From: Opitutia bacterium | Lineage (GTDB): Bacteria > Verrucomicrobiota > Verrucomicrobiia > Opitutales > Opitutaceae | Assembly: GCA_016190985.1 (NCBI GenBank) | Contig: JACPPI010000001.1 | Coordinates: 1-64,000 of the forward strand | Length of the DNA stretch: 64,000 nucleotides | Direction of reading: 5' to 3' | Shown: one piece after another, positions 41,679-44,600 of the stretch | How positions within the stretch are numbered: the first letter of the stretch is position 1 | Layout: each line of letters begins with the position of its first letter | The notes under the pieces: generated by a model | The model's input: the letters and a program-made list of their open reading frames with translations, nothing else | Told to the model about the DNA's origin: nothing | Database searches by the model: none | Translations under genes and position numbers: made by a program

Positions 41679-44600
41679 CTAGAGTTTGAGCGCCTCGGCC
41701 AGCCTGCCGGCGTCGCCGCCACCGCCCTGGGCGTAGTCGGGCTTGCCGCCGCCCTTGCCGCCGAGTTTCGCCGTGAGGCCGCCGATGAGCTTGCCGGCGG
41801 CTTGGCCGGCCTTGATGGCCTCGGGCGAGCAGTAGGCGACAAGGCTGACCTTGCCGTCGAGGAGGGCGCCGAGCTGCACGACGGCGCCGGCGCCGATCTT
41901 GTGCAGCACCTGGCTGCCCAGCGAGCGCAGGGCGTCCTGGTTCTCGGCCGTGACCACGGCGGAGACCCACTTGAGGCCATCCTTGGTGACGGCGGCTGCC
42001 GCAAGCTCGTCAGCGACGCCCGCCGAGGCCTTGGCCTCAAAGGCCTTCAGCTTTTTCTCGAGCTCCTTCTGGTGAGTGAGGAGGGACTCGAGCTTGCCGG
42101 CGACGTCGTTGACGCCGGCGTTGAGGCGGGCGTTCACGATCTTGAGGGCTTCCTCCTCGTGGACGACGAAGTCGAGCGCGGCCTGGCCGGCGGCGGCCTC
42201 GATGCGGCGCGTGCCGGCGGCGATGGCCATCTCGGCGGTGATCTTGATCAGGCCGATCTCGCCGGTGGTGGTCACGTGCGTGCCGCCGCAGAGTTCCTTG
42301 GAATAGCCGCCGATGTCGACGAGGCGGACCATCTTGCCGTATTTGTCGCCGAAGAAGGCGAGGACGTCGTCCGGTTTCTTCGCGTATTCGATGTCGGCGG
42401 AGACGACCTTGGCGTTGTCGATGACCTTCTCGTTGACGAGCTGCTCGACCGCGCGGAGCTGGGCCTGCGTCATCTGCTCGAAATGGGTGAAGTCGAAGCG
42501 CAGGCGGTCCGGCGTCTTGTGCGTGCCGAACTGGCGGACGTGTGTGCCGAGGACCTTGCGCAACGCCCAGTGGATCAGGTGCGCGGCGCTGTGGTGGCGG
42601 TTGATGGCGCGACGGCGGGCGTAATCCACGTGCAGCGTGGCTGCTGCCCCAACGGCCGGCACGGAGGCCGGCCCTCCAATTTTGTGCAGATGGCGGCCCG
42701 ACTTGTCCTTGATCGTGTCGGTGATGTCGACCCTGGTGCCGTTAATGAGCGCGTGGCCGCTGTCGCCGACCTGGCCGCCCATCTCGGCGTAGAAGGGCGT
42801 CTGGTCGAACACAAGGTAGGCGTCCTTCTCGGTCTTTACGGTGTCCACGAGCTTCGCGTGGGTGGCATGGGTCGCATCGATGTTGTAGCCGACAAACTTA
42901 GTGGCCTCGGCGGCGGACTCGCCCTCGGTGACGGCGACGATGACGTCGGTCTTGCGGGCGGCGCGGCCGCGCTCACGCTGCTTCTCCATCTCGACTTCGA
43001 ATGCTGCGACATCAACCGACAGGCCGCGCTCGGCCGCGAGCACCTGTGTCATGTCGAGAGGAAAACCGTAGGTGTCGTAGAGAAGAAAAGCGATTGAGCC
43101 CGGTATTTCCCGGGGAGCGCCCGCGTCCCGCGGGCTGGGTTCGGCGTCTCGCCGAACCTCATTCGAGGGCGCCCATAGAAACGGATAGTCCTCGCCCGGC
43201 CTGACAAGATTGGCGGCGTGCGGGTTGTTCACAATGTAAAGGAATTTCTCCATGAGATCGTTTTCTCCGCGAATCAGGCGGTCAAACGTTTCCTTTTCCC
43301 AGACGGGGCCTGAGGTTCCGGTCGCTTTGTTTATTTCATGGGCGGTGAATGATTTCACCGAGTGGAGAATTTCATTGAGCGGGCGGAAGACCGGTGCGCC
43401 GTCCTCGGTCTTTTTACGCGGGTGTGGTTCCAGCAAGGCGTGGACGTGGTCGGGCATCACACACGCGGCGAAGAGATGATAGTCCCCTTGCGCGTGGCCA
43501 TGCACGAGGCTGTCGAGAACGATCTGACGTTCGGCTGGAGCGAGCGCGCGGCGCAAATGCGTGCTGAAAGTGATATGGTATTTCCCCCACGGACGCTCGA
43601 AGTGGGGGAGGCGGCGTTTGGAATAGCGGGTGTCAGTCGGAGCGTCCGGCGAGACGCCGGACGCAGCACGCGGGACGCGTGCGCTCCCCGGGAAGTTGCC
43701 AACCTCGGCTTGAAAGACTGCGAGGCCCTTGTCGAGGGTCCGCCCGAACGACTCCTCCTCGGCGCGGATGGCCTTCTCGACCATGACGCGCTGGGTCTTG
43801 AGCTCGGGGAAGACGTCGCCGAGGGACTCGATGACGGGGGCGACCAGCGCGGAGAAGTCGCCGGTCTTCAGGCCGAGGTTCTTCTGCCCATACATGATGC
43901 CGCGGCGGAGAATGCGGCGGATGACGTAGTTGCGGCCCTCGTTGCCGGGCAGGATGCCGTCGGCGATGGCGCAGCTTACGCAGCGGGCGTGGTCGGCGAG
44001 CACCCGGAAGGTGACGTCGATGGTTTCTTGCTTATTGAGCAAGGATCTCGTGGCCGGCACGGTGCCCATATAGGTCGCCTGGGAGAGCGCGGCGATCTTG
44101 TCGAAGGTCGGCTTGAAGACGTCGGCGGCGTAGTTGGACGGCTCGGCGTTGAAATCTTTGAAGCCCTTCGTCGTGGCGTGGATGCCGGCGACGCGCTCGA
44201 AGCCCATGCCGGTGTCGACGTGCTTGGCGGCGAGCGGCGCGAAGGTGCCGTCGGCGTTCGCGTTGAACTGGATGAAGACGTGGTTCCAGATCTCGATGCA
44301 GCGCGGCGAACCGGCGTTCACCAGCTTGCGGCCGGCTTTCTCGTCGTCGGAGGGCAGGAGGCTGAAATGGATCTCGGAGCACGGCCCGCAGGGGCCGGTG
44401 TCGCCCATCATCCAGAAATTGTCCTGCTTGTTGCCGTGGACGATGTGGACGGCGGGGTCGAGGCCGGCATCGGCGAAAATCTTTGCCCAGATGGCGTAGG
44501 CCTCCTGATCAAAGTCGGACGGGTCGCCCTTGGCCTTGTCGGGCGAGTAGACGGTGGCGAAGAGGCGTTTCGGCGGGATGCCCCAGACCTTGGTGAGCAG

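Follow-up and report, generated by a model that had tools for sequence, protein, structure and literature searches.

A REP-associated tyrosine transposase with double-hairpin ends in the reading frame of alaS, and its relatives inside host genes

Results

A transposase domain in the reading frame of alaS

The stretch of DNA analysed here (the window) is 64,000 nucleotides long and comes from an Opitutia bacterium of the family Opitutaceae (GenBank assembly GCA_016190985.1, contig JACPPI010000001.1, positions 1 to 64,000). Its alaS gene, which codes for alanyl-tRNA synthetase (AlaS), contains in frame a 578-bp element in which the coding sequence of a transposase domain is bracketed by DNA hairpins (Table 1). 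AlaS models cover the alaS product in two stretches, and the insert between them is matched by the model for REP-associated tyrosine transposases (RAYTs; REP, repetitive extragenic palindromic sequence) and by Pfam Y1_Tnp. The AlaS motifs downstream of the insert are intact, no Rfam family, such as a self-splicing intron, was detected between 42900 and 43900, and the genome, which measures 2.95 Mb and is 99.5% complete, has no second AlaS.

Scored alone against NF047646, the RAYT model, the insert reaches 80.1 bits for a cut-off of 80, and 75.6 bits when scored within whole AlaS, so that this match is borderline. The only PDB sequence match of the RAYT is TnpA_REP (4ER8), and this structure, in which the protein is bound to a REP hairpin, is also its best fold match (E 8.7e-8). 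The domain has the motifs HVH and YIVNNP, which fit an HUH motif and the single catalytic tyrosine in YIxxNP. The AlphaFold2 model of the RAYT alone is confident, with a predicted local distance difference test score (pLDDT) of 89.7. In the model of the AlaS-RAYT chain, the RAYT is a folded unit between two stretches of pLDDT below 50, the outer edges of which coincide with the ends of the element. The whole-AlaS model is only moderate (pLDDT 71, predicted template modelling score 0.44) and the orientation of the domains was therefore left unused. On the solved structure of human AlaRS, the insertion site maps between residues ~394 and ~397.

Table 1. Features of the alaS element (positions in the window)
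Feature	Position	Strand	Remarks
alaS	41682..44930	-	1083 aa; element in frame between residues ~413 and ~607; TIGR00344, 7.9e-241, two stretches
Whole element (in-frame REPtron), foot to foot, 578 bp	43112..43689	-	51-nt inverted repeats
Foot GGGGAGCG, 5' end (alaS sense)	43682..43689	-	common to most relatives' ends
Outer hairpin, 5' end, GCACGCG-TCC-CGCGTGC, 7 bp, TCC loop	43666..43682	-	fold z -5.19 with inner hairpin
Inner hairpin, 5' end, 10 bp, triloop; codes for ASGVSPDA	43642..43664	-	single-stranded DNA fold; covariation
N-side linker, REP-encoded, AlaS residues 414-445, predicted disordered	43596..43691	-	AlphaFold2 pLDDT < 50
RAYT (TnpA_REP-like) domain, AlaS residues 436-588	43167..43625	-	NF047646, Y1_Tnp, AlphaFold2, fold match 4ER8
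RAYT HVH motif	aa 495-497, 43440-43448	-	
RAYT catalytic Tyr	aa 565, 43236-43238	-	
C-side linker, REP-encoded, AlaS residues 590-606, predicted disordered	43113..43163	-	AlphaFold2 pLDDT < 50
Inner hairpin, 3' end, 9 bp, TCT loop; alaS reading VRRDAEP	43138..43158	+	single-stranded DNA fold
Outer hairpin, 3' end, 7 bp, TCC loop	43119..43135	+	fold z -4.88
Foot GGGGAGCG, 3' end	43112..43119	+	

Each end is a foot and two hairpins with covarying stems

The inverted repeats that bound the element are 90% complementary and lie 486 nt apart. Each end comprises 45 nt, a foot followed by two triloop hairpins, and the two ends are inverted. An earlier note on this DNA had described GGTTCGGCGTCTCGCCGAACC (43138-43158) and GCGTCCGGCGAGACGCCGGACGC (43642-43664) as inverted hairpins with complementary stem differences that bracket the transposase. 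Positions, orientation and stem differences were all confirmed. As ends, the two hairpins are real but make up only half of each end, a second hairpin lying outside (43119-43135 and 43666-43682), preceded by GGGGAGCG. The single hairpin was therefore dropped as the unit in favour of the conserved one, the double hairpin plus foot. The RAYT frame has no interruption at either end and continues into AlaS on both sides, and the ends translate as GSARVPRAASGVSPDA and EVRRDAEPSPRDAGAP, in agreement with the proposal of the earlier note that the hairpins are also read as protein.

Folding of the ends as single-stranded DNA gives exactly the two hairpins each (z -4.88 for the 3' end, -5.19 for the 5' end), with no shuffled sequence as good. 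Each inner-hairpin pattern, allowing up to 3 mismatches, matches only the two ends in the 64 kb, where 0.01-0.02 matches were expected. These pattern counts and fold z-scores rule out a chance origin of the hairpins.

The complementary stem differences had been taken as a sign that DNA structure is under selection, which the window alone does not show but covariation in relatives does. For the five Opitutaceae elements, nine ends of which were compared, pairing at the right register holds for 99.3% of the cells, versus 30-51% when the register is slid; 21 cells are double-changed, versus 0-4 in slid registers and a maximum of 13 over 500 shuffles. Among 96 distinct ends, a set anchored by GGGGAGC alone and in which 4-nt-loop variants lower the paired fraction, this fraction is 84.2% (37-47% slid), and double changes number 327, where shuffles give 133 at most. 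The contrast with shuffles is inflated by relatedness; that with slid registers is not. Some of the paired changes are silent and others alter the amino acid: the window codes for ASGVSPDA where a relative (G137) codes for APGVTPGA, the stem being kept. The DNA structure is thus held while the peptide drifts, and the covariation as a whole indicates that the stem structure is under selection. Moreover, of 68 well-paired ends, 67 have the same first loop base in the outer and inner hairpins, compared with no more than 38 after shuffling, as expected if a single protein reads both. Reading of the hairpin loop by TnpA_REP has been published (PMC8266576).

The RAYT lineage resides almost always inside host genes

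A scan of 85,462 genomes, one per species, with the five closest RAYTs of the family (see below) yielded 80 loci, which belong to Verrucomicrobiota apart from two, one of these from Kiritimatiellota. At 75 of the 80, the RAYT frame continues on the same strand into a host protein, and the other five are free-standing. Since all 80 loci were classed alike, out-of-frame or antisense insertions would have shown as free-standing. The host of the 75 embedded copies is AlaS near residue 408 (32 loci) or near residue 295 (4), RecG (24), MetH at two sites (6 and 3), ThrS (4), CarB (1) or PriA (1), the identity of hosts other than AlaS having been checked with NCBIfam on representatives. At least 150 in-frame host residues are present on both sides in 67 of the 75, and none of these fully covered host frames contains a stop codon. 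Of the remaining eight, seven run into the end of their contig and L092 has a stop 22 codons past the RAYT. An ATG close to where the RAYT begins is seen in just 9 of the 75. A separate, even draw of 388 genomes of the phylum, searched with a 45-row profile, gave one match in each of seven genomes, the frames around these matches measuring 730-1316 aa; the window genome and G022, an Ereboglobus genome, were among the seven and already known. The six other RAYT-family matches in the window genome do not lie in a comparably long host frame. Residence inside essential genes, a point missed by the earlier note, is by these frames the rule for this RAYT lineage.

The catalytic residues are kept across the lineage, the two HUH histidines in 79/81 and 81/81 and the tyrosine in 80/81. 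Y1_Tnp was matched in all 45 members examined with Pfam, and no other Pfam domain in any of the 45 cores. Ratios of nonsynonymous to synonymous substitution rates (dN/dS, Nei-Gojobori method, own script) are approximate because dS is high in several pairs; they amount to 0.12 for the window RAYT against G125 and 0.21 against G171, to 0.09-0.17 for the closest AlaS pairs and to 0.06-0.07 for RecG pairs. These values show that the RAYT evolves under purifying selection. A decaying fossil is ruled out by the low dN/dS and the kept catalytic motifs.

When host and site are mapped as labels on the RAYT tree, 16 changes are required, for a minimum possible of 8 and a shuffled mean of 42, which shows that the lineage changed host gene or site repeatedly. 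In Akkermansiaceae, one AlaS site is occupied by two separate RAYT clades, so this slot was filled more than once; the clades consist of L137, L145, L147, L150 and L158 on the one hand and of L138, L140, L141, L153, L155-L157 and L159 on the other.

Several individual loci deserve mention. At L092, where MetH ends 22 codons after the RAYT, the remaining MetH lies in a new open reading frame (ORF), possibly a natural split. L101, L085, L139 and L106 have extra in-frame peptides encoded by REPs or by paired REPs (REPINs), devoid of transposase, in AlaS, MetH and CarB, beside or away from the RAYT. The AlaS of L089, on a contig of a Kiritimatiellaeota metagenome-assembled genome (MAG), groups on the AlaS tree with that of a Verrucomicrobia MAG (L099), which may reflect a binning error or transfer.

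Relatives and dispersed REPs in Opitutaceae

A comparison across 252 genomes of the family gave a closest group of five RAYTs, to which the window's belongs, and every one of them sits in frame in the same alaS loop; the carriers are the window genome (Opitutia), G125, G171 and two Ereboglobus genomes, in one of which, G022, the assembly breaks at the hairpin, with poly-C noise. The earlier note had proposed a genome search for copies of the hairpins. No further copy turned up in the window genome and none in 20 congeners, which have no match to the element itself. By contrast, the ends occur many times over in genomes of six further genera of the family. A plasmid collection searched with the element gave no match. 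Measured in the same way, the AlaS loop is hypervariable in RAYT-less members of the family, with 43-110 residues versus 237 in the window. After residue ~408, the loop of some relatives (L039-L047, L052) contains insertions of unrelated sequence that may be remnants of lost elements. Transfer of whole alaS is not favoured, since the window AlaS branches with those of RAYT-less congeners in a tree built from the N-terminal part of the protein.

G171, the only close RAYT of which is the one in AlaS, has 71 matches to the REP pattern, versus 0 for the reversed control. Many of them occur as two inverted REPs forming a unit of ~103 bp, which is the REPIN arrangement. These REPs point to activity of the RAYT in trans. 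They fall short of proof because G171 also has more distant RAYTs and because of the REPs of G033 and G024 (see Discussion).

Discussion

A probable in-frame RAYT-REP unit

The two hairpin pairs are probably the ends of a complete RAYT-REP unit (REPtron) that lives in frame in a permissive AlaS loop, the RAYT being tethered to AlaS, the unit mobile and its ends coding for linkers. A further reading, for which the chances seem about even, is that the lineage represents a distinct mobile-element lifestyle: an in-frame REPtron lacking expression signals of its own, found almost only in essential genes, would borrow their translation and re-target a few loops (in AlaS, RecG, MetH, ThrS, CarB and PriA), its hairpins acting both as transposition signals and as linker codons. 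I infer that the element is mobile and that the host enzyme is active. The RAYT, having no start of its own, would be produced as a tethered domain of the host enzyme, with the REP-encoded stretches serving as flexible linkers. It would recognise its own double hairpins on single-stranded DNA and act in trans to move the unit or miniatures made of two REPs (REPINs). Copies would persist if inserted in frame, on the same strand and in a tolerant loop, and embedded copies would be hard to lose, since a deletion that is not a multiple of three kills an essential gene. Persistence would then be intein-like, albeit devoid of splicing.

Several observations weigh against these proposals. The length of the element, 578 bp, is not a multiple of three, which means that junction bases were adjusted. 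No copy of the hairpins or ends exists elsewhere in the 2.95 Mb of the window genome, and recent mobility there is hence unsupported. A clean empty site was sought in the congeners and no precise junction was found, the AlaS loop being hypervariable. Among the Opitutaceae carriers, the order of the RAYT tree matches that of the AlaS tree, so that old presence followed by many losses is not separable from exchange through the flanks. Finally, the family genomes G033 and G024 have similar REPs and no close RAYT.

The alternative that comes nearest is domestication by the host, in which the RAYT would be a fixed accessory domain useful to AlaS (or RecG, MetH, ThrS) and its mobility a thing of the past. 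Low dN/dS, an intact catalytic site, the single copy per genome in the 388-genome draw and the long stay in one slot within clades all fit this view, as does the published characterisation of RAYTs as domesticated (PMC8266576). It nevertheless seems unlikely: the same domain occurs in functionally unrelated enzymes, with two separate sites in AlaS and two in MetH, it is absent from the 20 congeners, and the hairpin ends are kept by covariation, for which a pure protein domain has no need. Even less probable is a passive intragenic insertion, that is, an ordinary REPtron that landed in AlaS by chance and was tolerated, with no special in-frame lifestyle. In-frame intragenic REPs and Rickettsia palindromic elements are known (PMC3733652, PMC10969869) and the AlaS loop tolerates other inserts. 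Passive insertion does not, however, account for in-frame, same-strand residence at 75/80 loci and in 7/7 matches of the separate draw, for the recurrence of few genes and slots or for purifying selection on the RAYT protein; nor do the six other RAYT matches of the window genome share such a long host frame.

It is also conceivable that the RAYT is made from an internal start, with AlaS cut short, rearranged or spliced around it. The split MetH of L092 speaks for such a scheme. Yet the scarcity of ATG codons near the RAYT start, the 67 host frames free of stops, the absence of any Rfam RNA around the insert and the intact AlaS motifs after it make this explanation very improbable. As for an assembly chimera, which the broken, noisy G022 assembly might bring to mind, its probability is negligible: the same junction type recurs across dozens of independently made assemblies, long contigs among them, which refutes a chimera for the phenomenon.

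Comparison with known systems

The element resembles the REPtrons of E. coli and Stenotrophomonas and the REPINs of Pseudomonas in its Y1 HUH transposase, which belongs to the REP-associated model and is nearest in fold to 4ER8, in its inverted hairpin brackets and in the REPIN-like two-REP units of G171. It differs in that the window and most relatives have a GGGGAGC foot instead of GTAG, in that its ends are double hairpins, and in that the transposase has no separate gene, being read through both ends into the host protein. The REPtron layout proposed by the earlier note hence stands as regards a RAYT (NF047646, Y1_Tnp, 4ER8) between inverted REP hairpins, and has to be amended as regards the classical GTAG foot, which is absent, the double ends and the lack of solo copies in the window genome.

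TIRtrons consist of a tyrosine transposase (TIRYT) between long terminal inverted repeats, some doubly palindromic and many with GGGGWSAS (Di Nocera 2013, PMC3733652). The element is like them in having its transposase between long inverted repeats, and its own motif is GGGGAGC. It departs from the GGGGWSAS of TIRYT subclass 2.1: GGGGAGCG or GGGGAGCA fits the first six positions, position 7 being C and not A. The C-terminal helix-turn-helix domain of this subclass was not found either, Y1_Tnp being the only domain in the 45 cores, and TIRYTs have been described with genes of their own and not as in-frame parts of host genes.

Opitutus terrae, a member of the same phylum, has the most intragenic GTAG REPs among the genomes surveyed (PMC3733652). 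Like these REPs and the Rickettsia palindromic elements (PMC3733652, PMC10969869), the element is palindromic DNA that housekeeping genes carry in frame and translate. The known repeats measure 20-150 bp and lack a transposase, whereas here the transposase is inside the host protein.

Mobile coding elements that occur in frame in essential genes, at recurrent sites and with nuclease-type activity, are familiar as inteins. The likeness extends to the in-frame position in essential genes and to the recurrence of sites. No splicing (Hint) domain was found in AlaS, where Pfam and NCBIfam scans give only AlaS and Y1_Tnp/RAYT models, and the insert is predicted, unlike an intein, to remain as a tethered domain.

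REPtrons, TIRtrons, intragenic REPs and Rickettsia palindromic elements are thus already known; what is apparently new is a RAYT in frame inside host proteins, no description of which was found in the literature searched (subscription papers and preprints lay outside the search). A survey of transposases that mentions no Verrucomicrobia set aside unexpectedly long fusion proteins (Quentin et al. 2018, PMC6006769), and in-frame REPtrons may be among these. Surveys that drop long 'fusion' transposases may overlook such elements. In the usual view, RAYTs are single stand-alone domesticated genes and intragenic REPs are passive passengers; here a phylum-wide RAYT lineage lies inside housekeeping proteins, its active site under selection. 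It provides a test system for transposases that are made as domains of aminoacyl-tRNA synthetases and of a helicase, for promoterless persistence of a mobile element and for DNA structure shaping protein sequence.

Other RAYTs and palindromes

The window genome contains a second, unrelated palindromic repeat, GGAGGGCCGGCCTCCGTGCCGGCC, at 42654-42677 (- strand), in frame in another variable loop of alaS, where it is read as GGPASVPAV; a single further copy, a weak one, was found in the genome. At 211-606 of the window (- strand) there is also a free-standing RAYT from a different lineage, in a 165-aa frame that scores 95.9 bits with NF047646. Two further RAYTs were observed in frame elsewhere. 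L160 (G022 C1, - strand) belongs to a different RAYT lineage and lies in a creatininase-like protein, with palindrome-encoded peptides on both sides. L161 (G043 C47) lies in a 1253-aa frame that resembles the HsdR subunit of type I restriction enzymes, with flanking repeat peptides.
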